Source: a virus. From it: a stretch of 24,386 bases of DNA. Position 1 is the first letter of the stretch. Every line of letters starts with the position of its first letter. The notes beneath the pieces are model-generated. The model did not search any database and had not been told where the DNA came from. It saw only the letters and a list, made by a program, of their open reading frames with translations. The position numbers and the translations under genes were made by a program. Location of the stretch: positions 1 through 24,386 of IMG/VR virus record IMGVR_UViG_3300044961_001091; one strand, 5' to 3'. This document shows positions 16,711-23,902 of the stretch, piece after piece.

Positions 16711-17055
16711 GCCTTCGCGAGCGAAGAAGAAGGAAGCCGCGCGAAAGAATGTCGTGGGGACGAGCGAAACTCACATCGCGTATCATCTCGATAGTCGGGA
16801 AAGATGCGGCCGCGCCTCGGACAACGATCCGATAGCGCAGCAAAGCGAAGGGATGCGAAGACCTGATGGTTCCTTCGTGGCCGCGGCGTATGCGGGGGGC
16901 GGACGCGCCGGACTTCGCTAGCGTCAGCCGTAAAACATGGTTCGCAGTTCGCACGTTTGCCGCGTGATATCCGCACCTTAGGTGCGAACCATGGTGCGCA
17001 CGGTTCGCACCGTGGTTCGCATGGTTCGCACTCCCCCCTGATCCTGGATGGTTCC
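16711..17055. other. Non-coding gap between the toxin and the ParB-methyltransferase genes
   Basis: No convincing open frame on either strand; the long minus-strand frames here are shadows. The first 225 bases show nothing clear beyond a weak CTTCG-CGAG-CGAAG dyad just after the toxin stop. The last 120 bases hold the GGTTCGCA repeats and a palindrome. The promoter of the methyltransferase operon should lie here, but no good boxes were found. Confidence 0.55.
16939..17030. repeat. GGTTCGCA short-repeat cluster
   Basis: Four perfect direct copies lie at 16939-16946, 17002-17009, 17014-17021 and 17023-17030, with an inverted copy TGCGAACC at 16983-16990 and near copies at 16946-16952 and 16993-17000. 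Between the first copies and the rest is a perfect 7+1+7 palindrome, CGCACCT-T-AGGTGCG (16972-16986), of related sequence. The cluster ends 25 bases before the start codon of a ParB-domain protein, so it may be an operator or partition-like site bound by that protein. Confidence 0.62.
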
Positions 17056-18519
17056 ATGACGCTCCCCTGGATGGCAGCAAAGATCCTGCTGCGCCCGGTG
17101 GCGGAGCTGCGTGCGCATCCAGGCAACGCGCGGCTGCACGGCGCGGAGCAGCTCGAGCAGATCAAAGCCAGCATGCTGGCCTTCGGCTTCACCAACCCGC
17201 TGCTGGTCGACGAGGCGGGCATGCTGATCGCCGGCCATGGCCGGCTCGCGGCGGCGGCGTCGCTCGGCCTCGAGAAGGTGCCGGTGATCGTGCTGCGGCA
17301 TCTCTCCGCGGCGCAGAAGGAAGCGCTGCGTCTCGCCGACAACCGCATCGCGGAGAACGCCACCTGGGACCAGGCGCTGCTGCGTGACGCGCTCGCCTCG
17401 GTGCAAGCGGCAGCGGAGATCGACCTCGCGTCACTCGGCTTCTCGGCAGACGAACTCGGCGCCCTCATGGCGGCGGCTGAGAGCGCCGTCACCGATGGCG
17501 ATGCTCCCGAGGAGGTGCACGCCGCTCAGCCCGGCGTTCCCGCGCCGCACGTCGGCTCGGCTGAGCAGGACGATGCCGAGGATCCGGCCGACGCGGCTAC
17601 CGAACAGCCTCGCCAGGTGATCACCCGAGCGGGTGATCTCTGGCACCTTGGCGACCACCGCCTGCTCTGTGGCGACAGCACCGATGCGGCCTCCGTCGCC
17701 CGCGTGATGAGCGAGGACCGTGCCGCGCTGCTATTCACCTCGCCGCCCTACGGCAACCAGCGCGACTACACGACCGGCGGCGTCTCGGATTGGGATGCGC
17801 TGATGCAGGGCGTGTTCGCGCATCTCGGTGCGGCTCTGCGGCCCGATGCGCAGGTGCTCGTGAACCTCGGGCTGATCCACCGCGAGAGCGAGTGGCAGCC
17901 CTACTGGCAGTCATGGCTGGACTGGATGCGCGCCCGCGGCTGGCGGCGCTTCGGGCTTTACGCCTGGGATCAGGGGCCAGGCCAGCCTGGGGATTGGAAC
18001 GGGCGGCTTGCCCCTGCCTTCGAGCTTCTCTTCCACTTCAACCGTGAGGCCCGGCAGCCGAACAAGATCGTGCCCTGCAAGTGGGCTGGCGATCCGCTGC
18101 CTATGACCGGGCTGCGCCGGCCCGATGGGACGATGAGCGGCTGCACCCACGAGGGTCGACCGATCCAGCCGTTCCGCGTGCCCGACAGCGTGCTGCGCAT
18201 CACCCGTCACAAGGCACGCGGCATCGAGACGGAGCACCCGGCGGTGTTCCCCGTGGCGCTGCCGGAGTTCCTGATGCGTGCCTACACGGACGAAGGCGAA
18301 GTGGTGTTCGAGCCGTTCGCCGGCTCTGGCACGACGATCCTCGCTGGCCAGCGCACCGGTCGCCGCGTGGCCGCCATTGAGCTTGCATCCGCCTATGTCG
18401 ACCTCGCGATCGCGCGCTGGCGGATGTTGCATCCCGATCTACCGGTGACGCTCGATGGCGACGGCCGGGACTACGACAGCATCGCCGCAGCGCGCACGGA
18501 GGTGGCTGATGCAGCCTGA
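17056..18519 (+). CDS. ParB-domain DNA methyltransferase fusion, SPPY type
   Basis: A 487-residue fusion. Residues 1-140 are a ParB/Srx-like domain (GHGR box at 60-63, LRLADNRIAENATWD). The methyltransferase domain has SPPYGNQ at 229-235 as motif IV and FAGSGTT at 421-427 as the SAM-binding motif, in the beta-class order. SPPY favours N4-cytosine modification, although N6-adenine enzymes also occur. A linker rich in alanine, aspartate and proline (about 143-188) joins the domains. ATG 17056 is preferred; the longer frame consists of repeat-encoded Gly-Ser-His. It may protect phage DNA from host restriction or set methylation marks; the target sequence is unknown. The next gene starts 11 bases inside its 3' end. 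Confidence 0.83.
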   Translation: MTLPWMAAKILLRPVAELRAHPGNARLHGAEQLEQIKASMLAFGFTNPLLVDEAGMLIAGHGRLAAAASLGLEKVPVIVLRHLSAAQKEALRLADNRIAENATWDQALLRDALASVQAAAEIDLASLGFSADELGALMAAAESAVTDGDAPEEVHAAQPGVPAPHVGSAEQDDAEDPADAATEQPRQVITRAGDLWHLGDHRLLCGDSTDAASVARVMSEDRAALLFTSPPYGNQRDYTTGGVSDWDALMQGVFAHLGAALRPDAQVLVNLGLIHRESEWQPYWQSWLDWMRARGWRRFGLYAWDQGPGQPGDWNGRLAPAFELLFHFNREARQPNKIVPCKWAGDPLPMTGLRRPDGTMSGCTHEGRPIQPFRVPDSVLRITRHKARGIETEHPAVFPVALPEFLMRAYTDEGEVVFEPFAGSGTTILAGQRTGRRVAAIELASAYVDLAIARWRMLHPDLPVTLDGDGRDYDSIAAARTEVADAA

Positions 18520-19762
18520 CCTCCGCGTCGTCGATCTGCCGCTCGCATCCCTCGCGCCCTACGCCGAGAACGCGCGCACACACTCGCCCGAGCAGGTAGC
18601 GCAGATCGCGGCGTCGATCGCGGAGTTCGGCTTCGTGAACCCGGTGCTGGTCGACGCCGACGGCGTGCTGATCGCCGGCCATGGCCGCGTGATGGCGGCC
18701 AAGCGGCTCGGCCTCGCCGCGGTGCCAGCGCTGCGGCTTGGGCACCTCTCGCCCGCGCAGGTGCGCGCGCTTCGGCTGGCCGACAATCAGATCGCACTGA
18801 ACTCGGGCTGGGACGAGGCGCTGCTCGCTGCCGAGATTGCGAGGATCCGCGACGAGGCGGTGATCGATCTCGACGTGCTTGGCTTCTCCGGCATGGAGCT
18901 CGATCGGCTGCTCGCGGTAGCCGATGGCGACCTCGAGGACGGCGTCGATGACGCTCCTGAGCCGCCCGCGGTCCCGGTCACGCGTCCGGGCGACCTCTGG
19001 CGCTGCGGCGAGCATCGGCTGCTCTGCGGCGATGCCACGAAGCTCGCCGACATCGAGCGTGCGCTCGGCCCCGGCCACCTCGCCGACATGGCCTTCCTCG
19101 ATCCGCCTTACAATGTCGCCTACCAGGGTGGCACGGCGGCGAAGATGACCATCGCCAACGATGCGCTCGGTGATGCCTTCCTCGACTTCCTCCGCCCCGC
19201 GCTGGCCAACGTGCTCTCGGTGACGAAGGGTGCCTGCTACGTCTGCATGTCCTCGTCGGAGTGGCCGACGCTGCACCGGGCTTGGCTCGAGGCAGGCGGC
19301 AAATGGTCGAGCACGATCATCTGGGCGAAGAACACCTTCGCGCTCGGCCGCGCCGACTACCACCAGCAGTTCGAGGCGATGCTCTACGGCTGGAAGGCTG
19401 GCGCGCAGCACTACTGGTGCGGCGCGCGCGACCAGGGGAACGTCTGGCACTTCGACAAGCCGGCACGGAACGACCTGCATCCGACCATGAAGCCGGTCGC
19501 GCTCGTGGAGCGCGCCATCCGCAACAGCAGCAAGCCGCGCGATACCGTCCTCGACAGCTTCGGTGGCTCCGGCACCACGATGATCGCGGCGGAGCGGCTC
19601 GGGCGCCGCGCGGTGCTGATCGAGATCGATCCCGCCTATGCGGACGTCATCGTGAGGCGCTGGCAGGAAGCGACGGGTCAAGCTGCGGTGCTGGACGGGG
19701 AGGATCGGACCTTCGCCGACGTGGCCGCCACTCGCCATCATAGAATGATTGAGGTGGCCTAA
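18509..19762 (+). CDS. ParB-domain DNA methyltransferase fusion, DPPY type
   Basis: A 417-residue paralogue-like partner of the previous gene. The ParB domain has GHGR at 57-60 and LRLADNQIALNSGWD. The methyltransferase domain has DPPYNV at 198-203 and FGGSGTT at 351-357, with the WHFDKPA and HPTMKPV target-recognition strands typical of beta-class N6-adenine enzymes. ATG 18509 has GGAGG 6 bases upstream and overlaps the previous gene. The two fusions share the same domain plan but differ in motif IV, so they probably modify different bases or sites. Its last eight codons match a decayed copy found again at 21006-21034. Confidence 0.84.
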   Translation: MQPDLRVVDLPLASLAPYAENARTHSPEQVAQIAASIAEFGFVNPVLVDADGVLIAGHGRVMAAKRLGLAAVPALRLGHLSPAQVRALRLADNQIALNSGWDEALLAAEIARIRDEAVIDLDVLGFSGMELDRLLAVADGDLEDGVDDAPEPPAVPVTRPGDLWRCGEHRLLCGDATKLADIERALGPGHLADMAFLDPPYNVAYQGGTAAKMTIANDALGDAFLDFLRPALANVLSVTKGACYVCMSSSEWPTLHRAWLEAGGKWSSTIIWAKNTFALGRADYHQQFEAMLYGWKAGAQHYWCGARDQGNVWHFDKPARNDLHPTMKPVALVERAIRNSSKPRDTVLDSFGGSGTTMIAAERLGRRAVLIEIDPAYADVIVRRWQEATGQAAVLDGEDRTFADVAATRHHRMIEVA

Positions 19763-19780
19763 GGAGGCGATCCGATGCTC
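19700..19780 (+). repeat. Repeat copy A: 3' end of the second methyltransferase gene plus leader start
   Basis: Bases 19737-19762 match 21009-21034 at 21 of 26 positions, all differences being transitions; 19700-19726 match 20971-20997 at 19 of 27. Past the stop codon, gcgatccgatgctcgc (19767-19782) matches copy C's gcaatccgatgatcgc at 14 of 16. The sequence begins as coding and continues as the first part of the leader seen again in copies B and C. Confidence 0.6.
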
Positions 19781-19931
19781 GCCTAAGCCAGATCGCTTCG
19801 TCGGCGAGACGCGGCCGGTCAGCTAACGGCGCCATCCTCGATGAGCCGGCTCTGAGGTGCTGCCTTTGTTCCATACGGACCGCTAGTACATACTTCGATG
19901 CTGTAGCTGGCAGCATGCGGGAGGATACGGC
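19763..19931. other. Leader of the HNH gene
   Basis: After the end of repeat A there is a perfect 6+7+6 hairpin (ATGCTG-TAGCTGG-CAGCAT, 19898-19916) that ends just before the GGAGG ribosome-binding site. No convincing promoter boxes were found; TACATA at 19889-19894 is a weak -10 candidate. Confidence 0.35.
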
Positions 19932-20876
19932 GTGGTTCTGCGAGTTGCAGATCTGATGGCACCCGATGGCAAGGTTTTCCTCAAAAGCGAGTGGGCTCCG
20001 ATCGGCGACAACTGGCCTTGCTTGTCGTTCACCAAGAAGGCCGTTGGCGATCGGCTTCGTCGTGAGTTCCTTCCTGGCAGAGACGTGTTGATCTACGTCG
20101 GAACGGGTGATGCCCAGCGAACCGAAAATCCGGCCCACCGACGCCGACTGTTGTCGGCGATCGTCGTCGACCCGAGTCAGGAAATCGCCACCAGCAAGAT
20201 AGTTCCGCCGTGGCAGTGGGCCGAAAGTGTCGCAGAATATGGGCGGGATGCCTGGCCGCTCTCCATGCCAGTGACGACCGCTGCGCTGTTCACCGATGAG
20301 CCACTCCCTCCTGCACAAGAGGTTGCTCCGCTTGCGTATGTAGGGCTTGGCAGTGGGTTAGGGCGCGGAGGGGTAGTCGAGGCGGTTGGCAACGAACGCC
20401 GCGCCATCATGGAACTGCCAATCCGCAAGATCGAACTCACGCTATCGCCCGATGTTAAGGAGCACATCGCGCGCGCGTCCACGCTCCGGGCGCCGGACAG
20501 CAAGAACCTGCGTCGCGAGATTTCACGCGTCGCCTCCTTGATCGAGGAACGCATTCGAAGAAGCGGTGACCCCGCATCGCGGACGAACCCGCAGCGCAGC
20601 GTCCCGAATCTGTCTGATTTGTTCGCTTCGCTCAACGCGCGCTGGGACAAGCAGGCGGGCCGCTGCGCGATATGCGGTGGTGCAATCAGCATCGATGGAT
20701 CAAACGAGCTCCTCAAATTGTCCGCCGATCGCGTCGATTCCAGCAATCCGTCCTACGGTACCGGGAATCTTCAGCTCACGCACTTCGCCTGCAATCTGGG
20801 GAAGAACAACAGCTCTATGGCGGACACGTTGGCATGGATCGAAGTGATCAGGGAGGCCGGTAGGTCGACAGATTGA
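19932..20876 (+). CDS. HNH endonuclease candidate with possible PUA/EVE-like N-terminus
   Basis: A 314-residue protein starting at GTG 19932, with GGGAGG 7 bases upstream. The C-terminus is an HNH-like zinc-finger nuclease: C245-x2-C248, D266 and D269 (SADRVDSS), N279, H284 and C287 (GNLQLTHFACN), with a lysine near 291. The first 120 residues (LIYVGTGDAQR, RRRLLSAIVVDP) read like a small beta-barrel of the PUA/EVE/ASCH kind that in some restriction enzymes reads modified bases; this is a guess from pattern. A helical middle links the two. It stands right after two DNA methyltransferases, and its coding is less GC-biased than its neighbours'. It could be a modification-dependent restriction enzyme or a homing-type insertion. 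Confidence 0.6.
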   Translation: MVLRVADLMAPDGKVFLKSEWAPIGDNWPCLSFTKKAVGDRLRREFLPGRDVLIYVGTGDAQRTENPAHRRRLLSAIVVDPSQEIATSKIVPPWQWAESVAEYGRDAWPLSMPVTTAALFTDEPLPPAQEVAPLAYVGLGSGLGRGGVVEAVGNERRAIMELPIRKIELTLSPDVKEHIARASTLRAPDSKNLRREISRVASLIEERIRRSGDPASRTNPQRSVPNLSDLFASLNARWDKQAGRCAICGGAISIDGSNELLKLSADRVDSSNPSYGTGNLQLTHFACNLGKNNSSMADTLAWIEVIREAGRSTD

Positions 20877-20970
20877 TGCGAGTGCGTGGAGGACAGCATC
20901 CGGCGCATGCTGGGCATGGGTAACGCTTCGAGAAGCCCGCACGTAGTTGGTGTCAGCTAGCCTCGCTGGT

Positions 20971-21136
20971 GAAAATCGGACCTGCGCATACATCGGCATT
21001 CACCCGTGATCATGGAATGATCGAAGCGGCCTGAACAAAGCAATCTCCTGATCGTCTGATCCGCTTGGCTCGGCCGCGCTGCAGCGCGAATGGTGCGTCA
21101 CGAGCGGGACGCACCGCGCAGCAGACGGAGAGCACG
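20971..21136 (+). promoter_or_regulatory. Repeat copy B: decayed methyltransferase tail and GATC-rich leader
   Basis: Bases 20971-21034 are a frameshifted remnant of the second methyltransferase 3' end. From 21008 a 129-base leader follows that is 79 of 95 identical without gaps to copy C. It holds the inverted repeat GATCAT-GGA-ATGATC (21008-21022), GATC at 21008, 21019, 21050 and 21058, a 14-base palindrome CGCGCTGCAGCGCG (21075-21088) and a hairpin GGTGCGTC/GACGCACC (21092-21115). It ends with GGAG 6 bases before the start of the next gene. Confidence 0.6.
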
Positions 21137-21505
21137 ATGACCAACCGCACGATCCTCGCCACCCAGAACATCGACTGGGGCTTCTGGGGCACGATGCGCG
21201 AGCGCGCCGCCGACGCATGGCCGGTCGCCTTGGCCGCGATCCATGGCGCCACCGCCGCGGATCCGGAGTCGGTCCGCGCCTTCCTCGACAGCCGCCACGG
21301 GCGTCACTTCGCCGACGAGGTCACCAACCACCTGCACGCGGGCAAGGGGATCGCGGACGCGATCGCCGCCGCCACCGAAACCTGGATGGGCTGGCGCATC
21401 GGGCGCCGCACCAGCCGCGAGACCGGCATCCCTGCGGGGCTGCCCTACCTGACCGGCTTCGTGATCAGCGAGGGCATCGCCGCCGACGCCGCGCACGAAG
21501 GCTGA
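21137..21505 (+). CDS. Unrecognised accessory protein (122 residues)
   Basis: It begins MTNRTILATQNIDWGFWGTM and is mainly helical, with no membrane segment or catalytic motif seen. ATG 21137 is chosen for its GGAG 6 bases upstream and because it directly follows repeat leader B. The residues HLHAGKGIADAIAAATETWMGWRIG suggest a small structural or DNA-binding helix bundle. Part of a set of small genes with repeated leaders between the methyltransferases and the terminase. Function unknown; the gene is believable because of its ribosome-binding site, length and third-position GC pattern. Confidence 0.6.
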   Translation: MTNRTILATQNIDWGFWGTMRERAADAWPVALAAIHGATAADPESVRAFLDSRHGRHFADEVTNHLHAGKGIADAIAAATETWMGWRIGRRTSRETGIPAGLPYLTGFVISEGIAADAAHEG

Positions 21506-21514
21506 GCCCTGCGC

Positions 21515-21629
21515 GATCAAGGAATGATCGGGGCGGCCCGAACAACGCAATCCGATGATCGCGCGATCCGCTTGGCTCAGCCCCGCCGCAGCGCGAATGG
21601 TCCATCACGCGCAGCACACGGAGACGAGC
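21515..21629 (+). promoter_or_regulatory. Repeat copy C: GATC-rich leader
   Basis: 115 bases running from 10 bases after the previous stop to the next start codon. It is 79/95 identical to copy B and then lacks about 14 bases, including B's second hairpin. GATC sites at 21515, 21526, 21557 and 21565 have the same spacing as in B (11, 31, 8). The first dyad is GATCA/TGATC. TTGGCT-N12-AGCGCGAA is shared with B and D. Confidence 0.6.
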
Positions 21630-21833
21630 ATGGCCAACGCCATGGAGATCACGCCCGCCGACGAGGGGCTCATCGCAGCGATCCTGGACGAGGCAATGGG
21701 CTTGGGTCTCGGCGACGACGGGACGGTTGAGTGGGCTGCCTCGCGCATCGCCGACGCGGTCGAGACTGACCCAGCCACCGCGTGGTCGCTCGCCTACCAC
21801 GCCTTCCGCCGCCGGATTGGCAAGCACGACTGA
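21630..21833 (+). CDS. Unrecognised small accessory protein (67 residues)
   Basis: It starts MANAMEITPADEGLIAAI and is acidic and helical, with WAASRIADAVETDPATAW in the middle and a basic end (FRRRIGKHD). ATG 21630 has CGGAG 7 bases upstream, supplied by repeat leader C. No family is recognised. It shares nothing obvious in sequence with the 122-residue protein before it, although both have near-identical leaders, so the leader rather than the protein is the repeated unit. Confidence 0.55.
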   Translation: MANAMEITPADEGLIAAILDEAMGLGLGDDGTVEWAASRIADAVETDPATAWSLAYHAFRRRIGKHD

Positions 21834-21874
21834 CGCGGGCCCTTCCCGCATTGCCCCGACCGGTGATCCCGGCG

Positions 21875-21918
21875 GGGCTCGGGCTCGTAGGAGCCCGATG
21901 GTCGGGCTTCGACGAAGG
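21875..21918 (+). promoter_or_regulatory. Leader with mutually exclusive hairpins before the DUF3489 gene
   Basis: GGGCTC (21881-21886) can pair with GAGCCC (21891-21896), and AGCCCG (21892-21897) can instead pair with CGGGCT (21903-21908). The two helices share an arm and cannot form together. The small dyad CTTC-GAC-GAAG that follows touches the AAGGAG ribosome-binding site. This looks like a switchable leader. AGCCCGATGGT may be a diverged form of the AGCGCGAATGGT core of copies B and C. Confidence 0.4.
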
Positions 21919-21928
21919 AGCCACGACG

Positions 21929-22684
21929 ATGAAGCTTTCCGACACCCAGCTGGTGATCCTCTCTGCTGCTGCGAAGCATGAGATGGGACTGGCCCGCGCA
22001 CCCAAGGGCCTCCCGGCGGCAGCCCGCAACGCGGTGTTCCGCAGCCTGATCAAGAACAACCTGCTGACCGAGATCAACGCACAGCCCGAGCACGTGGGGC
22101 TCGGCTGGCGCCAGGACGAGGACGGGACGTGGATCGTGGCGCGCATCACCGACGACGGGCTCCGCGCCATCGGGATCGACCCGAACGAGGGCGACGCCGA
22201 GGCCGACACGGCGCCCACGGGCACGGAGGACGACGCACCGCAGCAGGAAGGCACCCCGGCGCCCGAGGCCAACCAGGACGCGCCTGTGGCCGCCCCGCGC
22301 GCCAGCCTGCGCGACGCCGCGCAGCGGGTTCTGGCTGCATGGGACGACGAGGACAACCAGCGCTACGACCTCGCCGACGCGATCGACGCCCTGCGCCGGA
22401 TCCTGGCCAAGCCCTCCCGCACCCCAAGCGCGCCCTCCGCGCCGCGCAAGCCGCGCGAGGGGACGAAGCAGGAGACGGTGCTCGCCCTGCTCCGCCGCGA
22501 CGAGGGGGCCACCATCGCGCAGATCATCGAGGCCACCGGCTGGCAGAGCCACACCGTCCGCGGCTTCCTCGCCGGGCTGAAGCGCAAGGGCATCACCGTC
22601 GAGGTGCTGGAACGCATCCGCCAGGTCGGCCCGAACAAGGAAGGCGCGAAGGGCTCCTACAGCATCTACCGCATCGCCTGCTGA
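21929..22684 (+). CDS. DUF3489 domain protein
   Basis: A 251-residue protein with three parts. The N-terminal 80 residues (KLSDTQLVILSAAAKHEMGL to GLRAIGIDPNEG) form a winged-helix-like domain. A long acidic/proline linker follows (about 85-160). The last 75 residues (REGTKQETVLALLRRDEGATI to SYSIYRIA) are a DUF3489 domain, itself a small winged-helix, as suggested by QIIEATGWQSHTVRGFLAGLKRKG. The two-winged-helix plan fits a DNA-binding regulator. ATG 21929 with GGAG 8 bases upstream sits after a leader able to form alternative hairpins. Regulatory target unknown. Confidence 0.75.
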   Translation: MKLSDTQLVILSAAAKHEMGLARAPKGLPAAARNAVFRSLIKNNLLTEINAQPEHVGLGWRQDEDGTWIVARITDDGLRAIGIDPNEGDAEADTAPTGTEDDAPQQEGTPAPEANQDAPVAAPRASLRDAAQRVLAAWDDEDNQRYDLADAIDALRRILAKPSRTPSAPSAPRKPREGTKQETVLALLRRDEGATIAQIIEATGWQSHTVRGFLAGLKRKGITVEVLERIRQVGPNKEGAKGSYSIYRIAC

Positions 22685-22726
22685 CGCAGCCGAGCCACAG
22701 CCAAGCAGAACATCGCGCGCGCCGGG

Positions 22727-22834
22727 GATCATCGCGATCTCCGGCGCACTCTCGAGTTGGCTGTGTCGAACCACAGCGCGAAGCGTCCGTCACGCGCAGG
22801 GGAGTGGCCCCGCGCCTCGGACGGAGACGCCTCG
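22727..22834 (+). promoter_or_regulatory. Repeat copy D: diverged leader
   Basis: It contains TTGGCT-N12-AGCGCGAA, as in B and C, where the spacer can fold as GCTGTG-TCGAAC-CACAGC (22760-22777). The next part matches copy C at 23 of 26 bases (22774-22799). GATC occurs at 22727 and 22736. A hairpin with GCGC-A-GGGG and CCCC-GCGC arms lies before the CGGAG ribosome-binding site. Confidence 0.5.
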
Positions 22835-23050
22835 ATGCCCTACGACCTCGCCACGCACGCCGACCTGGTTGGCCTCGCCGCACACGCGCGGCTCTCCTGG
22901 CAGCACTGGTTCGCCTGCGCCCGCGCCACGCGGATGGGGCTCAACGACGACCGCTACGGCGGCGCCTACGCGCTCGAAGGCGCCGGTACCTGGCGCCGCC
23001 GCTTGGCGGAGCTCAAGGCGCAGATCCGCGCCATCAAGGCGGGGGCCTGA
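22835..23050 (+). CDS. Unrecognised small protein (71 residues)
   Basis: It starts MPYDLATHADLVGLAAHARL and carries WQHWFACARATRMGL and TWRRRLAELKAQIRAIKAG, a short helical protein with a basic tail. ATG 22835 is preceded by CGGAG from repeat copy D and ends TGATG, overlapping the next gene. The family is not recognised. The coupling to the next gene and the repeated leader support that it is a real gene. Confidence 0.5.
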   Translation: MPYDLATHADLVGLAAHARLSWQHWFACARATRMGLNDDRYGGAYALEGAGTWRRRLAELKAQIRAIKAGA

Positions 23051-23331
23051 TGGCTCCCGCAGCCCGCAGCTGGATCGTGCTCGGCCAGGACGGCCGGCAC
23101 GTCAGCCTGGGCCGGACGACGCCGACAGATGCGGCGATCACGGCCGCCAGCGATGCCCTCAACGCACAGGGCCTCGGCGGCTGGATCGTCACGATGGTCG
23201 GCGCCTATTGGGGCCGCGGAGGCGTGGCCCTCGCGCCCGTGCAGGCGATCGGCGCCGACGTGACCCTGGACTGGCCCGCTGCCGTCGCCGCCTTCCTCGA
23301 CGCCCGGCAGCGCGCGCGGCGCGCTCGCTGA
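23050..23331 (+). CDS. Unrecognised small protein (93 residues) coupled to its neighbour
   Basis: It starts MAPAARSWIVLGQDGRHVSLGR and has a beta-rich first part (SWIVLGQDGRHVSLG, WIVTMVGAYWGRGG) followed by a helical, arginine-rich tail (FLDARQRARRAR). The start overlaps the previous stop as TGATG. No family match is known to me. As the last gene before the terminase it may be an early or late accessory gene. Confidence 0.5.
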   Translation: MAPAARSWIVLGQDGRHVSLGRTTPTDAAITAASDALNAQGLGGWIVTMVGAYWGRGGVALAPVQAIGADVTLDWPAAVAAFLDARQRARRAR

Positions 23332-23365
23332 TCCGATCACTGCGCGCGGCGGGAGGTCCGCCGCC

Positions 23366-23902
23366 ATGCCCGAGCTCACCCCATCCACCCGCGAGGCAGC
23401 ACGGCGCATCGGCGTCACGGAGACGGCGCTGCGCAAGGCGGAGCAGACGAACCGGATCGCCCGGGAGCCTGACGGCCAATGGGACATCGACAAGACCCGC
23501 CGCCGCCTGGTCGAGACCGCTGATCCGTCGCGCTCGCCGCTGTCGCCTGGTGGAGCCGGTGCAGAGGGCACCCCCTACGCGCGGCTGAAGGTCGCGCAGC
23601 TGGCGCTGAAGGTAGAGGCGCAGCGGCTCGCACTGGACGAGAACAAGCGCCGGCTGCTCGACGTCGCTGAGGCCAACGCCACGATCGACGAGATCGCCGG
23701 CACGATGCGCGACGCGCTGCTGAACTGGCCCGCGCGCGTCTCGGGTCTGATCGCTGCCGAGATCGGCATCGATCCGCATCTGCTGCAGACCATCCTGCAG
23801 CAACACATCACCGCCCTGCTGACGGAGGCCGCCGATCGCTTCGATCCCCCAGGCCTCACCGCCGGCGGCGCCGGTGGCAAAGATCGGGGCGCGGACGCGT
23901 GA
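23366..23902 (+). CDS. Phage terminase small subunit (Nu1-like)
   Basis: A 178-residue protein. The N-terminus (TREAARRIGVTETALRKAEQTNRIA) is the winged-helix DNA-binding domain that Nu1/TerS proteins use to recognise packaging sites. The middle, ARLKVAQLALKVEAQRLALDENKRRL, is a probable oligomerisation coiled coil, and the C-terminus is disordered and Gly/Ala-rich. It is followed at once by the GpA-type large subunit, so the pair is the packaging motor. ATG 23366 has GGAGG about 9 bases upstream. Confidence 0.82.
   Translation: MPELTPSTREAARRIGVTETALRKAEQTNRIAREPDGQWDIDKTRRRLVETADPSRSPLSPGGAGAEGTPYARLKVAQLALKVEAQRLALDENKRRLLDVAEANATIDEIAGTMRDALLNWPARVSGLIAAEIGIDPHLLQTILQQHITALLTEAADRFDPPGLTAGGAGGKDRGADA

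Follow-up and report, generated by a model that had tools for sequence, protein, structure and literature searches.

A short bipartite sequence, TTGGCT-N12-AGCGCG, is found before numerous small, unrelated genes across hundreds of phage contigs (among the matches listed), where it occurs in two classes. With moderate confidence, this repeat is taken to be a cis-regulatory DNA site that serves as the promoter or promoter/operator of a regulon of accessory genes. The element comes from a window of virus DNA, i.e. the whole stretch analysed, a 24.4-kb virus record of 24,386 nt (IMGVR_UViG_3300044961_001091). An initial annotation of the window had described a repeated, structured leader heading at least three unrelated small open reading frames (ORFs), and had offered a regulatory RNA, a promoter or anti-termination signal, and a recombination sequence as its possible roles.

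Only three exact matches to TTGGCT-N12-AGCGCGAA are present in the window, at 21065, 21572 and 22757, all on the + strand, against 1.5e-4 expected from base composition and none in 200 control sequences from a dinucleotide model. They are the cores of leader copies B (21005-21136, core 21065-21090, SD GGAG near 21127), C (21512-21629, core 21572-21597) and D (22719-22834, core 22757-22782), each located 58-78 nt 5' of the ATG of a different small ORF. The ORFs are indeed unrelated, as the initial annotation had held. Copy B heads a gene for a 122-aa protein of phrog_8020, function unknown (21137-21505, + strand), copy C a gene for a 67-aa protein with no family found (21630-21833, + strand), and copy D a gene for a 71-aa protein of family f7 (22835-23050, + strand). 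The same annotation had copy D keeping the core with its 12-base spacer, which the exact match at 22757 bears out, and its count of 79 of 95 identical positions between B and C agrees with 81% identity over 106 nt (21005-21110 versus 21512-21617) and with 83% across 98 nt by blastn. A terminator-like GC hairpin (22719-22747, GCGCCGGGGAT..ATCTCCGGCGC) lies ahead of the core of copy D. The array is made up of ORF 21137, ORF 21630, a DUF3489 gene (21929-22684, + strand), ORF 22835 and ORF 23050. It is flanked on one side by two ParB_N-N6/N4 DNA methyltransferases (phrog_498, 16957-19762, + strand) and on the other by the terminase small subunit (phrog_57, from 23366) and the start of the large subunit (up to 24386, + strand). 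The 3' end of the methyltransferase gene at 19738-19764 (HHRMIEVA*, CATCATAGAATGATTGAGGTGGCC) resembles the palindromic GATCA-N5-TGATC at 21005-21035 and 21512-21542, as if the DNA upstream of B and C were derived from it. An endonuclease-VII-like ORF (phrog_1035, 19932-20876), possibly an insertion, is present between methyltransferase and array.

Copies upstream of other genes in related genomes, which the initial annotation had proposed as a test, were found when viral contigs and one genome per species were scanned for the motif; the results given here are among the matches listed. Class I has the core ..AGCGCGAA, ..AGCGCGAANNGTCCGTCACG and belongs to prophages of Acetobacteraceae, with Roseomonas, Falsiroseomonas, Neoroseomonas, Roseococcus and Elioraea as hosts among the matches listed. 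It was found in 11 of 60 Acetobacteraceae genomes (36 copies), and a reversed control pattern gave no match. Class II has the core ..AGCGCGTT, with the arrangement GCTTGGCTTC-N6-GAACAGCGCGTTCAT, and belongs to other phage contigs with few host names, including Acidithiobacillus phage AcaML1. Among 398 sampled genomes of the phylum it was found in one, as six clustered copies with no control matches. Sak4-like, Cas4-like, DUF6511, methyltransferase, DUF3489 and terminase genes are common to five diverse members, which makes this one broad temperate phage lineage. A plasmid origin was considered and rejected, as the leader has no match in PLSDB; plasmid pTha01 carries a relative of ORF1 without the core.

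Such scans require the motif, and early motif matches with just 14 fixed bases took in unrelated contigs, so loci recruited by protein were used to measure conservation. With 11-12 of 12 fixed bases matching, the core is present in all 45 distinct upstream regions of phrog_8020 relatives (maximum of 9 in shuffled sequence), in 57 of 58 upstream regions of DUF3489 relatives, and in 16 of 19 for a third family. At least 641 distinct copies (duplicates removed) precede ORFs, which form approximately 23 multi-member families and a number of singletons, some of these being chance motif matches. The repeat is therefore a cis-element not tied to one gene, as had been proposed, with unrelated families behind its copies. 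DUF3489, DUF6900, KleA/KleC-like and phrog_8020 are the named families behind the core, and most of the others are nameless.

At least 224 loci contain two to six copies as [core+ORF] units, all co-oriented within each locus; loci overlap, so that this and the other locus counts are not independent. The order of families is conserved (f3-f2-..-f0), with families inserted into or lost from it. The spacer is 12 bases in 358 of 359 class II copies and 12 or 13 bases in class I, and the class II core is found about 64 nt before the ATG (IQR 63-65). About 30 nt separate the core from the end of the preceding gene, which leaves little room for another promoter. Wherever the neighbourhood is visible, the array is located between methyltransferases and terminase. 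Class II arrays run antisense to both in every locus, and class I arrays share the strand of their neighbours in 103 loci and lie on the opposite strand in 44. Since arrays face either way or run antisense, transcription from the neighbours is insufficient and a promoter of their own is needed.

Copies are also found outside the array. About 15 of 28 long class II phage records have an extra copy at a distance of 15-20 kb, which heads a DUF2924 gene or a member of a small family starting MSNRFK, and the out-of-array copy of AcaML1 likewise precedes gp4. In loci L613-L619 the out-of-array DUF2924 core shares bases with the 3' coding end of the gene ahead of it (..GLGFLPDQRVHPTPYQQEQL*), and the site thus constrains the C-terminus of that gene's product. 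In AcaML1 (JX507079) the starts annotated for gp5 and gp30 lie over or ahead of a core copy (about 3043 and 21140); their true starts are probably downstream, e.g. at gp4 and about 21076.

The core itself gives no sign of RNA structure. Its folding energy compared to shuffles has a mean z of about -0.5 to +0.9 with no excess in any family, RNAalifold found no covarying pair in class I leaders, and mutual information found no paired columns in class II. The segment after the core folds better than shuffles in class I only (z about -2), and families f4, f6 and f7 have a terminator-like hairpin just 5' of the core (z about -1.5 to -2.8). The description of the leader as structured thus applies to the variable hairpins after the class I core and not to the conserved core. 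Rfam release 15 gave no gathering hit in the window; in 14 relatives its hits were all below threshold, attributable to chance and away from the element. This agrees with the initial annotation, which had recognised no described RNA family. Peptide-level explanations were also considered. Class II copies can be read as LASxxNSAF in frame 0 and as LGFxxxQRVH in the frame from CTT GGC TTC. A leader peptide was rejected, as 107 + 200 copies have no in-frame start with an SD, the class I spacer is 12 or 13 bases, and third codon positions (nt 28, 37) are among the most conserved. An in-frame N-terminal fusion was rejected as well, the core-to-ATG distances covering all three frames. Being unfolded, free of covariation and without a leader peptide, the core acts like a site that is recognised by its linear sequence.

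Of the options originally offered, a promoter is still the best. The site would be read as linear sequence ahead of every accessory gene in a single temperate phage lineage, and unrelated small genes would thereby come under one shared expression programme. RNA polymerase would initiate inside or just past the core, with TTGGCT near -35 and the start about 25-30 nt before the ATG, and a phage protein would recognise the core. Recombination between copies would allow genes to be gained or lost as [core+ORF] units. This reading is supported by the near-invariant bipartite core, its fixed spacing, its location on the gene's own strand, the many families it precedes and the arrays that run against their neighbours. 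The following observations count against it. There is no recognisable -10 box, as the hexamers 17 bp from TTGGCT are GTTCAT/GTTACT in class II and GAATGG in class I, unlike one another and unlike TATAAT, and the tight class II core-to-ATG distance would equally suit an mRNA or translation element. In favour of the reading, a scan for sigma70 hexamers only (-35/-10, 16-18 bp apart) found none in 19600-23420 of the window; the site would then depend on an activator, a different sigma factor or some other reader. No phage-encoded RNA polymerase was recognised among the families common to five annotated phages.

It is possible, though on balance unlikely, that control is exerted on the RNA, with the core read as a linear motif of the 5' leader of the mRNA, where a protein or antisense RNA opens or blocks the ribosome-binding site of each cistron, and where the class I hairpin covers the SD. 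The short and fixed core-to-ATG distance of class II would fit such a role, as would the folding of the class I post-core segment, in which TCCGTC pairs fully with the SD-containing GACGGA in 190 of 249 copies. In class II, an arm 5' of the core, GAAGCCAAGC, is complementary to GCTTGGCTTC in 140 of 359 copies compared to 8 in shuffles. However, the SD-sequestering helix is frequent yet shows no covariation above permutation (6 versus 6.2 distinct combinations). Together with the folding values of the core and the lack of covarying pairs, this result tells against the structured regulatory RNA suggested by the initial annotation. Class II leaders moreover lack any fold, the upstream arm is restricted to certain, mostly internal, genes of the array, and RNA-level control would still leave the arrays in need of a promoter. 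The arm is found in class II leaders of f0, f2, f12 and f14; it is common before f0 and f2 and rare before f3 and f9, which are usually first in the array.

A site for recombination or cassette exchange, in which a recombinase recognises the core and the main role is the shuffling of cassettes, is improbable. Gene content does vary at the boundaries of the element while order is conserved, and the phage genes include ones for a Sak4-like annealing protein and a Cas4-like exonuclease. One locus (L220, around 1690) has a hybrid leader with an f0-type first half and an f4-type second half followed by the f4 gene; it would fit recombination at the core, but could be an assembly artefact. However, each copy in an array stands 5' of an ORF, on the ORF's strand and with constant spacing. 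An ORF was detected behind all but 9 of 374 class II copies, which means that the last cassette has no terminal site after it; no cassette is reversed, and copies also precede the distant DUF2924 gene. Ordinary homologous recombination between repeats accounts for the variation. The shuffling of cassettes put forward earlier is thus retained as a consequence, seen in the variable gene content and the one hybrid leader, and not as the primary function. Very improbable is an operator similar to a stoperator, at which a repressor would silence the accessory genes and transcription would not be started. The copies are asymmetric, co-oriented, numerous and intergenic like the cluster A stoperators named in PMC4351075, and winged-helix and HTH_17 proteins are encoded nearby, but the cores are tied to gene starts and not scattered through operons, and a separate promoter was not recognised. 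A chance repeat, or the recent copying of a single gene together with its flank, has next to no probability: the likeness of B and C extends upstream of the core, which makes this pair probably a local duplication, but the ORFs behind the copies are unrelated, hundreds of copies occur in many phages, and the core is invariant in samples recruited without the motif, counts that already refute this explanation.

If the core is a promoter or promoter/operator, the best candidate for the phage protein that would recognise it is the product of the DUF3489 gene (PF11994; 3.8e-23, 81.8 bits compared to the Pfam gathering cut-off of 29.5). DUF3489 is the only constant gene of the arrays. It is present in 99 of 99 class I and 71 of 73 class II arrays (170 of 172, recruited by motif), and in 254 of 257 overall. 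AlphaFold2 predicts two winged-helix domains with a linker of low confidence between them. Structural matches of the model are to winged helices of RuvB type (Z 10.4) and of NolR/NiaR/BirA type (Z about 8.5). A PDB sequence search gave weak MarR-like hits only and Foldseek no hit below 1e-3. A pair of DNA-binding-like domains would be well matched to a site whose two parts, TTGGCT and AGCGCG, are 12 bp apart. That DUF3489 reads the bipartite core is an attractive candidate idea, drawn from co-occurrence and a predicted fold. Against it, the DUF3489 gene itself is without the core in class I and in AcaML1, and its constancy may have another reason. The full proposal is a tentative one that we rate as rather unlikely: an undescribed phage regulon in which the tandem winged-helix DUF3489 protein of the same array would read the bipartite site before every accessory gene, so that exchangeable small genes would be under plug-in, host-independent control in phages whose hosts are distant (at least Acetobacteraceae and Acidithiobacillus).

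The DUF3489 gene has a different leader. What was noted earlier as a possible fourth copy of the repeat, at 21875-21918, belongs instead to a two-hairpin structured leader at 21845-21928 (+ strand; cmsearch 68.6 bits) that is peculiar to DUF3489 genes and lacks the core. In class I phages an invariant GTAG separates the two hairpins. In an alignment of 26 sequences 96.6% of pair cells hold, both sides change in 7 of 17 pairs, and covariation is 0.280, whereas shuffled sequences give 0.102 and slid controls no more than 0.089. Searched with a covariance model, 34 of 47 sources, the window included, have a single copy; there is one per class I array, and the class II records tested have none. 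The leader has no Rfam match and is a candidate new RNA motif of Acetobacteraceae phages.

Integron gene cassettes are also small genes of variable content with a repeated element between them. The integron attC site is foldable and occupies the 3' end of the cassette, whereas the core is located 5' of the ORF at a fixed distance from the ATG and without an attC-like fold. The literature search found no description of the element, no paper naming DUF3489 together with phage and none naming DUF6900. Frpo, the single-strand promoters of plasmid leading regions, are repeated promoters for variable accessory (anti-defence) genes (PMC11541004). Frpo are folded single strands with -35/-10 boxes, whereas the core has no such boxes and no fold, as judged with RNA parameters only. 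EGeRS1/EGeRS2, the establishment-gene regulatory sequences of pLS20-family plasmids (PMC8708921), similarly define a regulon by a repeated regulatory sequence ahead of several variable accessory operons; they belong to conjugative Bacillus plasmids, are unrelated in sequence and have been tested by experiment. SAS/ESAS are repeats of cluster K mycobacteriophages (PMC3203893). SAS is a 13-bp GGGATAGGAGCCC at 3-9 bp from the start codon, and 17-bp inverted repeats are also part of the SAS/ESAS definition (PMC3203893; PMC11373665). In Adephagia, ESAS coincide with putative SigA promoters (PMC11373665), and similar repeats are found in Microbacterium phages (PMC7302621) and in phage Mordin (PMC4611695). 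Like the core, SAS/ESAS are asymmetric, multi-copy and in one orientation before the starts of unrelated non-structural genes, with function unproven. SAS overlaps the SD close to the ATG, whereas the core is a different sequence about 64 nt away, without the 17-bp inverted repeats or SigA-like hexamers, in other phages and hosts, and mainly in an array between methyltransferases and terminase.

The core would provide a near-invariant sequence tag for many small unknown phage genes under one expression programme, and could be used to collect candidate accessory or anti-defence genes. DUF3489 and the core form a concrete candidate pair of regulator and site. The closest published analogues are SAS/ESAS and EGeRS. 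The element would work like these, with no sequence or position in common with SAS, and would show a widespread proteobacterial counterpart of the start-associated repeats known from actinobacterial phages.
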